A DNA stretch of 64,000 bases. Source: a virus. The notes under the pieces were generated by a model. The model searched no databases and was not told where the DNA came from. It saw only the letters and a list, made by a program, of their open reading frames with translations. Made by a program: the position numbers and the translations under genes. The number at the start of each line of letters is the position of its first letter. Within the stretch, counting starts at the first letter, position 1. Below are positions 14,743-55,167 of the stretch, piece by piece. The stretch is taken from positions 1 to 64,000 of IMG/VR virus record IMGVR_UViG_3300030390_001877; one strand, given 5' to 3'.

Positions 14743-15142
14743 AATGATCACCTAATTGTAGTAAGGCACTACCCCCTAAGTAGTTGTCCCCACTTTTACC
14801 CCAAGCGTACCCCTTTAACTTTGTTCGCATAGGGTGTGTTTTTCTCTTTTCTTCAGCATAATTTATTTTCTCATCTAAATTAAACACCAACCCATAATGA
14901 TCCTGAATTAGGTTTAAAAAGTCGATATCAGCTGGCGGTAGTTTATCAAAAACTTTTCCTATACATCCTGAAAGTGTTATTATTTCAAGATGGCTTAAAC
15001 CTCTTTGATCAAGGCCGTATATGCAAGCTGGTTCAATATTCAGTTTATCCTTGCTAACTATGTTTAATAATCTTTTATTGTCTTTGTTTTTCCATTGACG
15101 ATCTGCAAAACTTTGTTTAACTTCTTTTAGTGAAATGGTCAT
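14735..15142 (-). CDS. Hypothetical protein, 135 aa
   Basis: Unrecognised soluble protein; Lys/Asp-rich N terminus, GYAWGKSGDNYLGGSALL at the C terminus. ATG behind AAGGTAATTTTAAA. Overlaps the next gene by eight bases. Confidence 0.65.
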   Translation of the reverse strand: MTISLKEVKQSFADRQWKNKDNKRLLNIVSKDKLNIEPACIYGLDQRGLSHLEIITLSGCIGKVFDKLPPADIDFLNLIQDHYGLVFNLDEKINYAEEKRKTHPMRTKLKGYAWGKSGDNYLGGSALLQLGDHYE

Positions 15143-15875: not shown

Positions 15876-16317
15876 ATACTTACTTTAACAACTTGAGAAA
15901 CAAAGCGTAACCTGTATTGAACGCAGACACTATAGTCTAAAATGGATTGCATACTCCAGCCCTGCCTGTAAGAAAATCCAACGTTATGTTATAACATATC
16001 CCCTCTTTTGAAATGTTATATTATCACAAAACAAATCCCCCTTAGAATGAATCTAATTCTCATAAAAATTTTTCCTGAATCTAATATCCGTGTGAATCAA
16101 AAACGTATCAAGACCTTTTCCTTTTCAAATCAAATACTTAGCAGGATTATTTTTGTAAACGGTTCTAAACAATTTCCCCTAATAATAACTTTTCCATCAG
16201 GTTCTCTCCTCAAAATAATCCCCCCACAGAATAACTTTTCTCGCAGAGATATACTCTCTCAGAAGCTCTCTCACGCCACGTAACACTCTTCTTATACAAT
16301 CACCCTACTTAAACTAG
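15876..16317. other. Gene-free AT-rich patch
   Basis: About 440 bases with no supportable gene. It contains the palindrome TATGTTATAACATA at 15985-15998 and ATGTTATATTATCAC at 16013-16027, both of the type seen in 5225-7014, followed by a C-rich, A-rich stretch on the plus strand. A frame at 16008-16283 is open but has no ribosome binding site. Confidence 0.6.
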
Positions 16318-28037: not shown

Positions 28038-28091
28038 AACTCTCCTCCTAAAAAATAATATTCCAAATACAAAAACTCTTTTGTGAATACA

Positions 28092-28157
28092 AAAACACCT
28101 CGCAAAAGATGTCCTCTTCAATAGGATTACTTTAGCAAGGTGTTTTGTTTGTGTCAA
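28092..28157 (-). promoter_or_regulatory. Promoter nested in a terminator hairpin
   Basis: Minus strand: TTGACA at 28157-28152, 17-base spacer, TAAAGT at 28134-28129. The spacer segment AAAACACCTTGC is complementary (one G.U) to GCGAGGTGTTTTT in the leader near 28103-28091, which ends in a T run. The -10 box and start point lie in the loop. Same design as 20352-20418. Confidence 0.75.
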
Positions 28158-34466: not shown

Positions 34467-34645
34467 TGGAAGAGTATACTGAGGAAAGTTTCAACTTGAC
34501 ATACCCAAAGTTTAAAATATTTTATAAAGTGTTACAAAACCAGCAACAGATGGAACATTTACATTTGTTTTCTGTGAAAACATGTTATATGTTAAAGAAG
34601 GATTTACTTAACCTAAAAGGAGGTTGTTATGTTTTTAGCCCATAA
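34466..34645 (+). CDS. Possible truncated gene, 59 aa
   Basis: Starts at ATG 34466, overlapping the upstream stop, as expected for this operon, but the last 40 residues look unlike the acidic proteins around it and the frame runs into the TnpB gene. It may be the remnant of a gene broken by insertion of the TnpB element. Its 3' end contains the ribosome binding site of tnpB. Confidence 0.4.
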   Translation: MEEYTEESFNLTYPKFKIFYKVLQNQQQMEHLHLFSVKTCYMLKKDLLNLKGGCYVFSP

Positions 34646-35735
34646 GGTCGAACTGAGGCCTTCTAAAGAACAACAAGAAAAATTACTACAATGGATTGGA
34701 ACAACCCGACATTGTTTTAATAATTTACTAAGTAACTTTTCTAAAGAAGGTGTTAAGTTTTCTAAGAAAACTGCTAGGGAATACCTTTATAACACGTTAC
34801 GTGTTGATAATGAATGGTATTCTGACATAAGTCAGGAAATCTTACGAGAAACTATCAATGATTTAGAAAACGCTTACAAACGTTTCTTTAAGAAACTTGG
34901 AGGTTATCCAAGATTCAAGAAACGTGGAAGTAAAGCTTCTTTCTCTGTAAGAGACAAGGCTAAGTTTAAAGTAGAAGGTAGAAATCTTTACTTAGAAAAG
35001 TTTAATAAAGGTAAAGAGGGTAAGCCTTTAAAGTTACGTGAGAAACTTCGTTTCGAAGGGACTCCTAAGCAGGTCACCATTTCTTTCCAGAATGGAAAGT
35101 GGTGGGCTTCTATCTTAGTGGAAGGTTGCTCCAATTATAAAGGTAGTTTTCCGCAAAGCGGGGAAGCAGGGATTGATTTAGGTATTAAAGATTTAGCTAC
35201 ATTGTCTGATGGAACTACGTTCCAAAAGAGTAATAAGCTAACATTAAGTTTAAAGAAGTTATCTAAACTTCAAAGAGTATTTTCTAAGAAGAAGAAAGGT
35301 TCTAATCGTAGAGCGAAAGCCAAGCTTTCGATTAGTAAGCTTCATTTTAGAATAAAGAAACAACGTGAAGCATTGCTTCACAACGTAAGCCATACTATTA
35401 CATCTAAATATAAAACAATCTGCTTAGAAGATTTGTCTATCTCGTCTATGACGAAAGGTAAGAATAAGTCATTAAACAGAATGATTTTAGATGTAGGTAT
35501 GTATGAGTTGCGTAGGCAACTAGAGTATAAATCTTTTCTGAGAGGTGTTGACATCCACTTCGTGGATAGGTATTATCCTTCAAGTAAACTACATTATGAG
35601 TGTGGCTTTAAGAATGACAACCTTAAATTAGGAGAATCTAATTGGAAGTGTGGTAACTGTGGTCAACAAGTTGACCGAGATTTAAATGCTTCCAAGAATA
35701 TCCTAAAAGAAGGGGTGAAACACTTACGTGTTTAA
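34629..35735 (+). CDS. tnpB: TnpB, RNA-guided nuclease of IS200/IS605 type
   Basis: 368 aa, the usual compact TnpB length. An N-terminal helical REC-like region is followed by the RuvC parts: GIDLGIKDLATLSDG (catalytic Asp near residue 186), ICLEDLSI (Glu near 272) and DRDLNASKNI (Asp near 352). The zinc finger CGFKN...CGNCG lies between the last two. All three acidic residues are present, so the enzyme looks active. Known TnpB proteins use an omega RNA from the 3' end of their gene to cut DNA next to a TAM. No tnpA transposase is nearby. ATG behind AAAAGGAGGTTGTT. Confidence 0.93.
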   Translation: MFLAHKVELRPSKEQQEKLLQWIGTTRHCFNNLLSNFSKEGVKFSKKTAREYLYNTLRVDNEWYSDISQEILRETINDLENAYKRFFKKLGGYPRFKKRGSKASFSVRDKAKFKVEGRNLYLEKFNKGKEGKPLKLREKLRFEGTPKQVTISFQNGKWWASILVEGCSNYKGSFPQSGEAGIDLGIKDLATLSDGTTFQKSNKLTLSLKKLSKLQRVFSKKKKGSNRRAKAKLSISKLHFRIKKQREALLHNVSHTITSKYKTICLEDLSISSMTKGKNKSLNRMILDVGMYELRRQLEYKSFLRGVDIHFVDRYYPSSKLHYECGFKNDNLKLGESNWKCGNCGQQVDRDLNASKNILKEGVKHLRV

Positions 35736-39202: not shown

Positions 39203-42200
39203 TTGAGTGATGACGGTTTATTTATTGGAGAACACCAGTATTGTTTAGCTAAAGAGTTTCCTGTTAAATCAGATGGAACGCAGCGTAGGTCTTGCGGTTC
39301 AAGTGACGCATTAGCTATTTATGAACATACAACTGTAGATGGTGTTACTTGGTATGATGGTACGTGTTTCTCTTGTAAACAAAAGTTTGATAGAGAAGAA
39401 GTACACTCTAGTAGTTTGTCAGGTTTTTTAGGGGTAGGAGAAGGTACTCTAGATGTAGTAGATAAAAAGGAGTTTGAAAATAAAGCTACTAAGAAGAAAA
39501 AGATTACTCGTGAAGAAGTGCAAGATCTTTGGTTGCGTACTGGAGGCAGGGAAGGTAATTCTGGTAAAGGTTATCGTGGTTTAAGTGATTGGGTGCTTAA
39601 ATTTTATGGACACAGAGTTGAGTATGATAAGCAAGGGAAGGTAAGTTCAATATATTACCCAGAGACTTCATCAGAAGATGGTAAGCTTAATGGTTATAAA
39701 TCTAGACACTTACCTAAGAAATTTGGTATAGGTAATCTAGGTAAGACAGGGGTAGTAAATCAGCTATCAGGGCAGCATAAGTTCCCTAATGGTGGGAGGT
39801 ATGCGTTAATTGCCGCTGGAGAAGAAGATAAGTGTGCTGCACAAGATATGCTACGTGAATACCAAAAGATGAAAGGACAAGAAGATTATGATCCTTATGC
39901 TGTAGTATCCCCTACAACAGGAGAACCCTCCGCAGCTAAACAATGTAGGCAACAGTATGATTGGTTTGATAAGTTTGAAGTTATAATTATTGGTATGGAT
40001 TCTGATGAAGTAGGGGAAGAAGCAGCCTTAGAGATTGCAAAAGTCTTACCAAGAGATAAAGTTAGAATAGCTAGATGGTCAGGTAAAGATCCAAACCAAA
40101 TGTTACTTGATGGTAAAAAGAAACAATTCTGGAGTGATTTCTTTGGTGCTAAGGAAGTCGTAGATAGTGGGGTATATAACGCTAATGATGACATGGTACA
40201 AGATGTAATTGATGTACTGACTACTCCTAGGATACCTTTACCTCATTTTGCTAGTAAATTAGAAGCTATGACAAAAGGATCAGGTTTGTTTACTAGGTCT
40301 ATATACTCATTAATAGGGGATACATCTGTAGGGAAGTGTCACGGAAAAGGTACAACTATTTTGATGCATGACCTTACTACTAAGAAAGTAGAAGACGTGG
40401 AGATAGGTGATCTGTTAATGGGGGATGACGGAACTAAAAGGGAAGTCAAGAAAGTACATAAAGGTTTTGATACTTTATACAATATAGAGCAATGTGATGG
40501 GGTTAATTATACTGTAAACAGTAAACATACACTATCCCTTAGAACAGGTTTTGATACTGTAATTAAAGGGTCTGACAGAAATAAAAGTAGAAGGTGTGCT
40601 GTTGATTATAAAAAAGGGCAAATTGTTAATATAGATGTACAAGATTATATTAAACTTCCTGCTTTAGCTAAAAGGTCTTTGAAAGGGTATAAAGGTTCTA
40701 TCCAAGAAGGCATAACTAGTAATATTAAACACCCTTGGTTATTAGGTATGTGGTTAGGTGATGGGCACACTAACCAAGCGAGAATAACTTTAGCTAAAAG
40801 TAATGTTGAGATCATAGATAAAATTGAAGATATAGTAAGAGAAGAGGATTATTACATAACTGTACCTCCTTCTTGTGATAGAGATACTACTTACACTTAT
40901 AGTATTGGTGGAGGTTTTAGAACTTATCTTACAAAACACTCTTTGATAGGGTTTAAGCATATCCCTAAAGATTTACTTTTAGGTAGCAGAGAAGAAAGAT
41001 TGCAACTTTTAGCAGGTATTATAGACTCAGATGGGTATCTAAATAGTAATGGTTGTTCTTATGAAGTTACTCAAAAAAGTAAAAAGTTAGCAGAAGATAT
41101 ACAAACTTTATGCAGGACTTTAGGTTATCGTTGTAGTATTAATTTGAGCAAAAAGTCTTCACAAAATGGTACAGTAGGTGAGTACCACAGAATGTGTATT
41201 ACAGGTGCTATTCACGAGATACCAGTAATCTTGTCTTATAAAAAGGCAAAAACTCAATCTGATTTACGTAAAGACAACAACACAGCTATAAAAGTGTCTT
41301 GTTTAGGTGGAGGAGATTATTATGGTTTTGAGGTAGACGGTAATCATCTATATTGTTTAGAAGATTTTACAGTGACACATAATAGTACGCACATAGATGC
41401 ATGGATATTCCATTGGATGTTTAATGTACCAGACCATAAAGTAGGTATTGTGAGTGTAGAAGCCACTAAAGGCGAGTGGGTTGCTGGTATGTTGTCTACT
41501 TATCTAGAAAATAACCTTTGGTGGATTCCTGTAGATGAGATAGAAAGTTATATGAATACTCCAGAAGTAAAAGCTAGAATTAATAACTTCTTTTACAATG
41601 AATATGGAGAAAGTAGGTTCGCTATTGTTGATGATAGGGAAGGAACAGTAGAGTCTTTGCAGAAATGTATAGACAAACTTGAGAGGCAGTACGGTTGTAC
41701 TATTATAGTGAATGATGTACTTACAGATATACTTCGTGTTGTAGATAATGAAGCTCAAGCAAGACATTTCAACTGGCAAAGTAATTTCGTTAAGAATGGT
41801 GCTACTATTTTCAATATATTACACACTCGTAAGTCAGGTGATAATCGAGGAGGAAAACCTACTTTCCCTAATGAGTTTGATGCCTACGGTAATTCTATCT
41901 TCGTCCAGAAAGCAGCAGGTAACTTTGTAATAGCCCGTAATAAAGAAGCACCTAACGATGATACTATTGAACAAAACACTACCTACTTGAGAGTACCTAA
42001 ACTTAGAAAAGGTGTTACTGGTAGTGGTGGTGCTTGGTATTATGACGGGGAAACTAGGAAGGTTTATGATCGAGATACCTACTTTAAGGATAATCCTGAA
42101 AAACTACCAACAGGTTATGACTTATCTATAAGCAGTTTTGATAGAGCCTATTGGGAAGAAGGTGGGCGTGGTTGGGATGGTGTTTCTGATAATAAAGGAG

Positions 42201-42280
42201 GTTTCACTAAAAAAGCGGTTAAAGTTGAAAAGGTAGAAAAAGATTGGGAAATAGATGTTGGAGATGGTACTAAATTCTAG
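39203..42280 (+). CDS. T7-type primase-helicase interrupted by an intein
   Basis: 1025 aa precursor, 676 aa after splicing. Zinc-type N terminus with Cys14, Cys31 and CFSC at 55-58; TOPRIM primase with AAGEEDKCAAQ and IIGMDSDEVGEEAA; RecA-like DnaB-family helicase whose Walker A GDTSVGK-S is divided by the intein, with later TIIVNDVLTD as Walker B. It should unwind DNA at the fork and lay primers for the polymerase encoded next. TTG start behind GAGGAGATTGAT. Helicase activity depends on correct intein removal since the P-loop is interrupted. Confidence 0.95.
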   Translation: MSDDGLFIGEHQYCLAKEFPVKSDGTQRRSCGSSDALAIYEHTTVDGVTWYDGTCFSCKQKFDREEVHSSSLSGFLGVGEGTLDVVDKKEFENKATKKKKITREEVQDLWLRTGGREGNSGKGYRGLSDWVLKFYGHRVEYDKQGKVSSIYYPETSSEDGKLNGYKSRHLPKKFGIGNLGKTGVVNQLSGQHKFPNGGRYALIAAGEEDKCAAQDMLREYQKMKGQEDYDPYAVVSPTTGEPSAAKQCRQQYDWFDKFEVIIIGMDSDEVGEEAALEIAKVLPRDKVRIARWSGKDPNQMLLDGKKKQFWSDFFGAKEVVDSGVYNANDDMVQDVIDVLTTPRIPLPHFASKLEAMTKGSGLFTRSIYSLIGDTSVGKCHGKGTTILMHDLTTKKVEDVEIGDLLMGDDGTKREVKKVHKGFDTLYNIEQCDGVNYTVNSKHTLSLRTGFDTVIKGSDRNKSRRCAVDYKKGQIVNIDVQDYIKLPALAKRSLKGYKGSIQEGITSNIKHPWLLGMWLGDGHTNQARITLAKSNVEIIDKIEDIVREEDYYITVPPSCDRDTTYTYSIGGGFRTYLTKHSLIGFKHIPKDLLLGSREERLQLLAGIIDSDGYLNSNGCSYEVTQKSKKLAEDIQTLCRTLGYRCSINLSKKSSQNGTVGEYHRMCITGAIHEIPVILSYKKAKTQSDLRKDNNTAIKVSCLGGGDYYGFEVDGNHLYCLEDFTVTHNSTHIDAWIFHWMFNVPDHKVGIVSVEATKGEWVAGMLSTYLENNLWWIPVDEIESYMNTPEVKARINNFFYNEYGESRFAIVDDREGTVESLQKCIDKLERQYGCTIIVNDVLTDILRVVDNEAQARHFNWQSNFVKNGATIFNILHTRKSGDNRGGKPTFPNEFDAYGNSIFVQKAAGNFVIARNKEAPNDDTIEQNTTYLRVPKLRKGVTGSGGAWYYDGETRKVYDRDTYFKDNPEKLPTGYDLSISSFDRAYWEEGGRGWDGVSDNKGGFTKKAVKVEKVEKDWEIDVGDGTKF
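40337..41383 (+). mobile_element. LAGLIDADG intein in the helicase P-loop
   Basis: 349 residues, from Cys1 (CHGKGTTILMHD, block A) to the terminal VTHN before Ser+1. Block B appears as NSKHTLSL. Two LAGLIDADG motifs, LLGMWLGDG and LLAGIIDSDG, mark a homing endonuclease. The C-terminal block has HLYCLEDFTVTHN. All splice residues (Cys1, His-Asn, Ser+1) are present, so it looks active. Confidence 0.93.
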
Positions 42281-53062: not shown

Positions 53063-54238
53063 TTGGGTGTAGTAACAATACACGAACACTTAGGTAAGAC
53101 TTACTTAAACAAACAAGGAAATACTCTCACTGTTGTTGGTTACGTTAAGAATGATACAGGTAGAGGTTATAAGTTAACAGTTACTTGTAGTAAATGTAGC
53201 GAAGATAAAGAATTGTTCCCTGACCCCTTCCCTATACTTTATAGTAAATTAAAAGCAGGAAGAAGTCCTTGCGGTTGTACTAGAATTATATACACAGAAG
53301 ATCAAATAAAAATATTAGCGAAAAGGAAAGCGAAGGAATTAGGGCACACCTTTTTAGGCTTCACCGATGAATTCGTAAGTAACAGAGTTACTGACCTTAT
53401 TATAAAATGCCCTCATGAAATTAAAGAAATTAATTGCCACCTCTACCTTAACTATAGTAAACACGGATGTAATAGTTGTGCTTCTGAGAGGGTATCTGAA
53501 AGCTATATCTCTAAGTATGAATACCCTTCGTGCGTGGAAGAAGTTAGATCTACTGAAGTAAAAGATTATGGAAGCAGGTATCATGAGTACAAGTGTTCAG
53601 TATGCTCTTATGATTGGTATGTTGTTAACGGTTTTTGTGATGGTTGGTTTAGTTTCAAGCCATGTAGGCTTAGTAAGGGAATCTTTACTTGTCGTTGTAA
53701 CTTAAATTATTTCCCAAAAGACTCTGATAGATATAATTTAGGAAGGGCAATCAAAAGTCGTCTGCCACATAAAAATATAAAAGTTTTAGACTTTAAGGGT
53801 GATAGGATACTTTTTGAATGTTCTTATCACGGAAAAGGTGATCAAAACTCCTCTAGTTGTTTTGAAGGGAGACTTCCTAAATGTTGTGTTAAGAATTCAT
53901 GGGGATATTACGAAGATAGAAAATATGATACAGATTACCTTTACTTCGTAAGTATGGAAGACATGGAGAACAATAAATACATAAAGATAGGAAGGTCTTT
54001 TAACCTTATGACCAGAATACAAGATTTAGAAGACGGTTATTTTGTTGACTTGCTTTATCTACTAGAATCTCCCCACAAGGATATATATAAGTATGAAAAA
54101 TTCTTCCATAAAGTTTTTCGCAAGTACCGAGAACAACCTCCTACTTATTTTAAAGGGGAAACTGAAGTTTTTAATTATACTGTATTAGGAGATAAGGATT
54201 TCAAATTACTTGTGTCAGATTTTATAGAAGGTTACTAA
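53063..54238 (+). CDS. Zinc-rich T5orf172/GIY-YIG-type nuclease
   Basis: 391 aa. Several CxxC or CxC pairs in residues 36-230 (CSKC, CGC, CNSC, CSVC, CRC) suggest repeated zinc-finger DNA-binding units. The C-terminal YLYFVSMEDM with KYIKIGRSFNLMTRIQDLE matches the T5orf172 domain, a branch of GIY-YIG nucleases. It sits alone between the SSB terminator and the block-ending terminator, like a free-standing homing endonuclease. TTG start behind AAGGAGATGTAC. Confidence 0.75.
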   Translation: MGVVTIHEHLGKTYLNKQGNTLTVVGYVKNDTGRGYKLTVTCSKCSEDKELFPDPFPILYSKLKAGRSPCGCTRIIYTEDQIKILAKRKAKELGHTFLGFTDEFVSNRVTDLIIKCPHEIKEINCHLYLNYSKHGCNSCASERVSESYISKYEYPSCVEEVRSTEVKDYGSRYHEYKCSVCSYDWYVVNGFCDGWFSFKPCRLSKGIFTCRCNLNYFPKDSDRYNLGRAIKSRLPHKNIKVLDFKGDRILFECSYHGKGDQNSSSCFEGRLPKCCVKNSWGYYEDRKYDTDYLYFVSMEDMENNKYIKIGRSFNLMTRIQDLEDGYFVDLLYLLESPHKDIYKYEKFFHKVFRKYREQPPTYFKGETEVFNYTVLGDKDFKLLVSDFIEGY

Positions 54239-54315: not shown

Positions 54316-55167
54316 TTACGACCTATCCGTTAGAATATTAGCACATCTTCCTTGTCTGAATCCTTCCTTCTGAGTATATTCCCTCTCAAGAGTGTCCATC
54401 TCTACTCCAACAACACCCATCTCAATACCAGTATTTCCCATCTCATTTTCTGTAAGAGGAGTTATATCATAAGCATCAGTTAATTCAGGAAGAATACTAT
54501 TACCTAAAAGAGTATCTTCTGCAACATCTTCGAAATAATACTCTGAGGAAAAGTTACCTGCCATCTCTACAACAGACTCTCCCATCTCAGCGATACTATC
54601 CCCCATTTGATATTCTGTTGAAGGAGGATTACCAACAAAAACTCTATTAGCAAACGCCTCTGAAAGTCTACAAGGTCTCAAACAAACGTCATCTTCTACA
54701 ACAATAATACCGCCTGTACGAACACCTGCTGGGGTAACGTTATCCATTGTAGCAGGGATAGCTTTAGGAATATTAGTTCCGTTGGTTTCTAACACTGTAC
54801 AAGCAGGATAATGTTCCCAGTAGCGTACTTTTGTAGCTTTAGTTATTGTTTGAAGGAAACCGATTACATCCTCAGGAGTACCACTACCTGTATTACGAGA
54901 TATACCAAACCTGATAGCATCCCTGAACTCTTCATCATCTAACCCTAAACGAGACACCCCTAGCAAAGCACCTATGATATCAAGTTGATACCCGAAAGCA
55001 GTATTTAGTTCAGTAGAGAATTCTCCTAAGGCTTGTTGAGCTAAGTTTAGTTCTTCTACTTGATCAAGATATATTGATAAAAGTTTTATTAAGTTTTCAG
55101 AGTCACTAAACTGTACTGGAAGAAGATCTGTATAAGAAGAGAAGTCTCTTATCTGTAGTTCTGACAT
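54316..55167 (-). CDS. Baseplate/tail protein, DUF2612-like
   Basis: 283 aa. The N-terminal third (LLPVQFSDSENLIKLLS, then TAFGYQLDIIGALLGVSR and GTPEDVIGFL) has the pattern of DUF2612 proteins, which follow baseplate J in contractile tails and link baseplate to fibres. The C-terminal half is acidic and repeats MGxxxxEMG-type turns, probably a beta structure. Last gene of the tail operon. Confidence 0.75.
   Translation of the reverse strand: MSELQIRDFSSYTDLLPVQFSDSENLIKLLSIYLDQVEELNLAQQALGEFSTELNTAFGYQLDIIGALLGVSRLGLDDEEFRDAIRFGISRNTGSGTPEDVIGFLQTITKATKVRYWEHYPACTVLETNGTNIPKAIPATMDNVTPAGVRTGGIIVVEDDVCLRPCRLSEAFANRVFVGNPPSTEYQMGDSIAEMGESVVEMAGNFSSEYYFEDVAEDTLLGNSILPELTDAYDITPLTENEMGNTGIEMGVVGVEMDTLEREYTQKEGFRQGRCANILTDRS

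Follow-up and report, generated by a model that had tools for sequence, protein, structure and literature searches.

How can a promoter and a transcription terminator share the same bases, and what would such an arrangement do for the genes on either side of it? The question is raised by a 66-base element in the window, that is, in the 64,000 nucleotides at the start of a virus record of 132,129 bp (IMG/VR IMGVR_UViG_3300030390_001877). A sequence-only reading had placed a promoter inside a terminator hairpin at this locus, and we found the element on the minus strand spanning exactly positions 28157 to 28092, with the signals of promoter and terminator interleaved. It lies in a 139-bp gap between two genes of the same direction, both without an assigned function: an upstream gene of 127 aa (28560-28177, minus strand), which belongs to the H101 gp060 family and whose stop codon is 19 nt from the -35 hexamer, and a downstream gene of 90 aa (28037-27765, minus strand), with relatives in HM1, H101, and IMG/VR contig 3300037962_000518.

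For the region of the element, the nearest annotated relatives by DNA are Pseudoalteromonas phages HM1 and H101 and Shewanella phage 1/40. Genes for a tail sheath, a family A DNA polymerase (PF00476), and a primase/helicase (phrog_239) identify this marine phage as a myovirus outside the T4 group; its relatives are classed outside Straboviridae. The primase/helicase gene (39203-42280, plus strand) carries an intein/homing endonuclease (Hom_end_hint, LAGLIDADG), and the terminase-named PHROG hits across the same positions are probably this intein. The window also encodes a TnpB-like protein (OrfB_IS605, Cas12f1-like TNB domain; 34629-35735, plus strand) and a protein with CapR and T5orf172 domains (53063-54238, plus strand).

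The element opens with the consensus -35 hexamer TTGACA (28157-28152), followed by a 17-nt spacer, CAAACAAAACACCTTGC (28151-28135), the -10 hexamer TAAAGT (28134-28129), and then AATCCTATTGAAGAGGACATCTTTTGCGAGGTGTTTTTG. The two hexamers match the consensus at 10 of 12 positions, and the last bases of the spacer are the TGC of an extended -10 (TG ahead of the hexamer); these are the features that define a sigma-70 promoter (TTGACA, 16 to 18 nt, and a TATAAT-like hexamer). The spacer also contains the left arm of the terminator stem, AAAACACCTTGC, whose 12-nt core (28146-28135) reaches 28130 with one mismatch when extended. The right arm, GCGAGGTGTTTT (28103-28092, extending to 28108), lies within the leader. 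The core arms form 11 Watson-Crick pairs and one G-U pair, and the T run TTTTT (28095-28091) comes directly after the stem, just as the sequence-only reading had described it. The element has the makeup of an intrinsic (rho-independent) terminator, in which a stem containing G+C leads straight into a T run. A direct repeat, TTTTTGTATT, is present in the leader right behind the terminator (28095-28060, minus strand), and the ribosome binding site of the downstream gene, AGGAGGAGAG, is at 28049-28040.

With inner pairs included, the stem covers 17 positions, one of them mismatched, and this extended fold pairs part of the -10 (AAAG). The proposed location of the -10 in the loop therefore holds for the 12-bp core stem only. 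Because of its loop, the element is missed by a simple terminator scan (loops of 3 to 8). Termination may be partial, given the short T run (5 T) and the long core loop (31 nt, or 7 nt with the inner helices). The minus-strand RNA folds at -24.6 kcal/mol; shuffled sequences average -10.9 (z = -5.06), and none of the 200 folded as well. An Rfam search of the element returned no family at threshold, with sub-threshold chance matches only.

The predicted transcription start is an A at 28122 (minus strand), 7 nt past the -10, in the sequence ATTGAAG. The prediction derives from the motif ATYRAAAC, to which this sequence is related but not identical. At 7 to 9 nt past the -10, the motif occurs four times in the genome of the phage (0.14 expected), four times in HM1 (0.12 expected), and five times in RB49 (0.19 expected); none was found at this distance in phage 1/40. 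ATYRAAAC is common to promoters of the phage itself, HM1 (L006/L008/L009), H101 (L010-L012), and the T4-type phage RB49 (L016/L045/L046), with 3 to 5 occurrences in each versus 0.1 to 0.2 expected.

The nesting exceeds chance across the genome. In a first genome-wide scan, the site at 28157-28092 ranked first in the 132-kb genome (score 16.2; runner-up 13.5), and no site in six shuffled genomes reached 13. A second, strict scan had tighter criteria (exact TTGACA, 16 to 18 nt, a -10 with at least 3 matches, a left arm in the spacer region, a T-rich tail; 20 shuffles per genome as background). At a stem score of at least 20, it recovered four strong sites in the phage, five in HM1, four in H101, and four in phage 1/40 (shuffle means of 0.1, 0.3, 0.2, and 0.3, respectively); at a stem score of at least 25, the phage has three sites against 0.00 expected. 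In H101, nested elements lie at 39243, 71861, 87184, and 113168. The class of nested promoter-terminators is real and not a product of chance, in line with the earlier argument from recurrence with unrelated arms.

Within the window, a further nested promoter-terminator (TTGACA ... ACCCTCCAG / TTGGAGGGT + TGTTTCTGTTT) occupies 20418-20354 on the minus strand; the element at 28157-28092 had been announced as a second case, and this site is probably the first. The strict scan places two more outside the window, at genome positions 88274 (minus strand) and 127859 (plus strand). Arm sequences are unrelated between sites within the genome. A pattern search for the arm sequence elsewhere in the genome found none, with a pattern (three free bases after TTGACA) that leaves the spacing of the site itself uncovered. 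The loop/start region at 20418-20354 (TATCGAAACAGAGAAC) resembles that at HM1 9728, with different arms, and in layout 88274 is similar to HM1 75105, and 127859 to HM1 113592 and H101 71861. Two other overlaps of promoter and hairpin were observed. At genome position 108222 (plus strand; L003), a promoter has CCTCTCTG / CAGAGAGG arms around the -10 and no T run, as in RB49. At record position 55114 of Shewanella phage 1/40 (L014:5114, plus strand), a hairpin directly 3′ of the -10 includes the GGAG of the ribosome binding site and has a T run behind it, which is a different kind of promoter/hairpin overlap.

The position of the -35 hexamer relative to hairpins points the same way. Among 91 strong terminator hairpins, 15 have an exact TTGACA in a 21-bp slot at the start of the left arm (3 of 9 in the phage, 5 of 29 in HM1, 4 of 20 in H101, and 3 of 33 in phage 1/40). 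By comparison, the 41 bp further upstream contain an exact TTGACA in 4 cases and the 57 bp downstream in 5. Nested placement is therefore preferred over side-by-side placement. The phage has 26 strong intergenic TTGACA promoters, of which about one-fifth have such a hairpin and the rest are plain.

To follow the element among relatives, we tracked the junction behind the upstream gene (J1) through homology of that gene, disregarding hairpins. A single-sequence search of viral contigs with the upstream protein found no relatives; an alignment search found seven loci. Vibrio phages encode distant homologs of the gene, and two of them (Grimontviridae) were rejected as junction comparators, the homologous stretch being the end of a larger protein. 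The nested element is present at J1 in the phage itself, HM1 (TTGACACCAAAGCCTGCATGGATTATTATTCTTGCAGGCTTTTT), contigs L018/L019 and L022, and H101 (TTGACAAAACCTCACAACGGAGATTACTCCTGTTGTGAGGTTTTCG, with a weak -10). At this junction, a T run follows the right arm in every case. The arms differ between phages yet remain self-complementary, and, except within the nearly identical pair HM1/L018, left arms pair much worse with the right arms of another phage than with their own. This arm swap is partly circular over all elements, most of which were picked by their hairpins, and only J1 is free of that. Because the more distant phage 1/40 (L023) and L024 keep a plain terminator without a promoter at J1, the constant feature is the terminator, with the internal promoter found on the Pseudoalteromonas-phage side. 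The groups of 20418/HM1 9728, 88274, and 127859 look like the situation at J1, their orthology being only partly backed by flanking genes.

The gene that follows the element is exchanged among these phages. It is one of a set of related 82- to 90-aa genes in the phage and HM1, and gp061 in H101, where the relative of the downstream gene of our phage is gp070, 5 kb off and behind a separate terminator and a separate promoter. In L018 the gene after the element is the one that comes second in HM1, and in L022 it is a gene located 1.3 kb further on in HM1. The alignment of HM1 with L018 reaches HM1 position 16252 and restarts at 16017, and that with L022 reaches 16261 and restarts at 14947; in each comparison genes are present on one side and absent from the other, and the break lies at the ribosome binding site/ATG immediately behind the element. 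The element therefore stays with the upstream gene while the genes behind it change. An IMG/VR contig behind L005 was rejected as a nested case: a TTGACA promoter without a hairpin stands there ahead of a homolog of the downstream gene.

We propose, with a probability of about 0.82, that 28157-28092 is a nested promoter-terminator, at which transcription from upstream is stopped and the downstream gene restarted, resetting and insulating exchangeable genes. Host-type sigma-70 RNA polymerase that arrives from the upstream gene would copy both arms, the hairpin would form ahead of the U run, and upstream transcription would end near 28091. Polymerase recruited at TTGACA/TAAAGT would start at about 28122, inside the hairpin loop, and the resulting RNA, which could not form the terminator because only the right arm is present in it, would continue into the downstream gene. 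Transcription would be reset at the junction, giving exchangeable downstream genes a start that does not depend on read-through from upstream. Predicted folding is consistent with this scheme: across 21 elements (20 marine and one from RB49), read-through RNA has a mean fold energy of -21.3 kcal/mol and RNA from the predicted start one of -2.2 kcal/mol, and the read-through RNA of the present copy folds at about -24 kcal/mol.

Such a stop-and-restart boundary is the most economical reading, but other origins of the nesting can be envisaged. Genome compaction could have packed promoter and terminator together, leaving a nesting with no regulatory meaning of its own. As coincidental crowding would have it, the genome has little intergenic DNA (12.5 of 132 kb, about 9%), and promoters and plain terminators also occur separately. 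We nevertheless consider crowding unlikely, since the -35 falls preferentially in a single slot with respect to the left arm, the spacer is 17 nt long in 18 of the 20 marine elements (fold-energy list), and one junction retains nested copies whose arms have changed.

Two explanations that reassign the hairpin are far less probable still. Dyad symmetry around the -10 and the start is a usual position for an operator, and the inverted repeat could accordingly serve a dimeric repressor or activator instead of a terminator. We give this very little weight, because arms unrelated between sites and phages offer no common protein site, the T run always follows the right arm at J1, and two relatives keep the terminator only. 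The hairpin could also act on transcripts from its own promoter, as in an attenuator or riboswitch-type leader. The leader of the 28157-28092 copy can indeed form a weaker, G-U rich, 11-pair alternative hairpin (-8.8 kcal/mol), which might attenuate the element's own transcript. As an account of the element, however, attenuation is equally improbable: the predicted start is downstream of the left arm, the leaders of most other copies fold weakly, as the mean above indicates, and no Rfam family reached threshold.

How does the nested promoter-terminator relate to known systems? Every part of it is standard among ordinary intrinsic terminators and sigma-70 promoters; what sets it apart is that the left arm lies inside the -35/-10 spacer and the start inside the loop or the right arm. 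Composites of this general type reportedly go back to Arbiol et al. 2010 and Comeau et al. 2014, who are said to have described the PeSL (promoter-early stem-loop) of T4-type phages. According to two citing papers (PMC4503421, PMC3950731), PeSLs are composite promoter/stem-loop elements of T4-type phages that mediate gene shuffling. The resemblance lies in the combination of an early promoter, strong and sigma-70-like, with a stem-loop terminator in intergenic positions at which related phages differ in gene content: our element has the former (TTGACA-17-TAAAGT with an extended -10) and the sequence features of the latter, and HM1, L018, L022, and H101 carry different genes behind it. It departs from PeSLs in its carrier, which is not T4-type, and in lacking shared sequence for recombination, as arms are unrelated and breakpoints fall behind the element. 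For these two reasons, we do not class it as a PeSL, although it would function like one.

RB49 served as a T4-type yardstick, with 115 kb examined. One of its elements (L016:3201, minus strand) has exactly the nested layout, T run included. Mostly, however, its terminators stand beside promoters, or the -10 of a promoter lies, as in many cases, in a short hairpin that lacks a T run and has repeated GGGAGTA/TACTCCC-like arms, whereas our phage nests the promoter with a T-tailed terminator and has different arms at each site. The haloarchaeal virus HGTV-1, as presented in PMC3950731, has a promoter motif that recurs together with an inverted repeat ahead of many of its genes, a combination which its describers compare to PeSLs. 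Its TATA-box-like archaeal promoter and single conserved motif set it apart, by description and not by sequence. The novelty of our element is its arrangement and not its parts, PeSL-type composites being already known.

These observations extend promoter-terminator composites beyond T4-type phages, and the element could be used in the laboratory as a small building block for insulated gene expression. We tentatively conjecture, at slightly less than even odds, that large marine myoviruses outside the T4 group possess a general nested stop-and-restart element, whose freely changing arms are kept complementary by selection, which forms a regular boundary for single-gene swaps, and which arose independently of the PeSLs of T4. 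Its logic would be compact: a terminator invisible to transcripts that start within it would explain how single genes can be gained or swapped without disturbing their neighbors.
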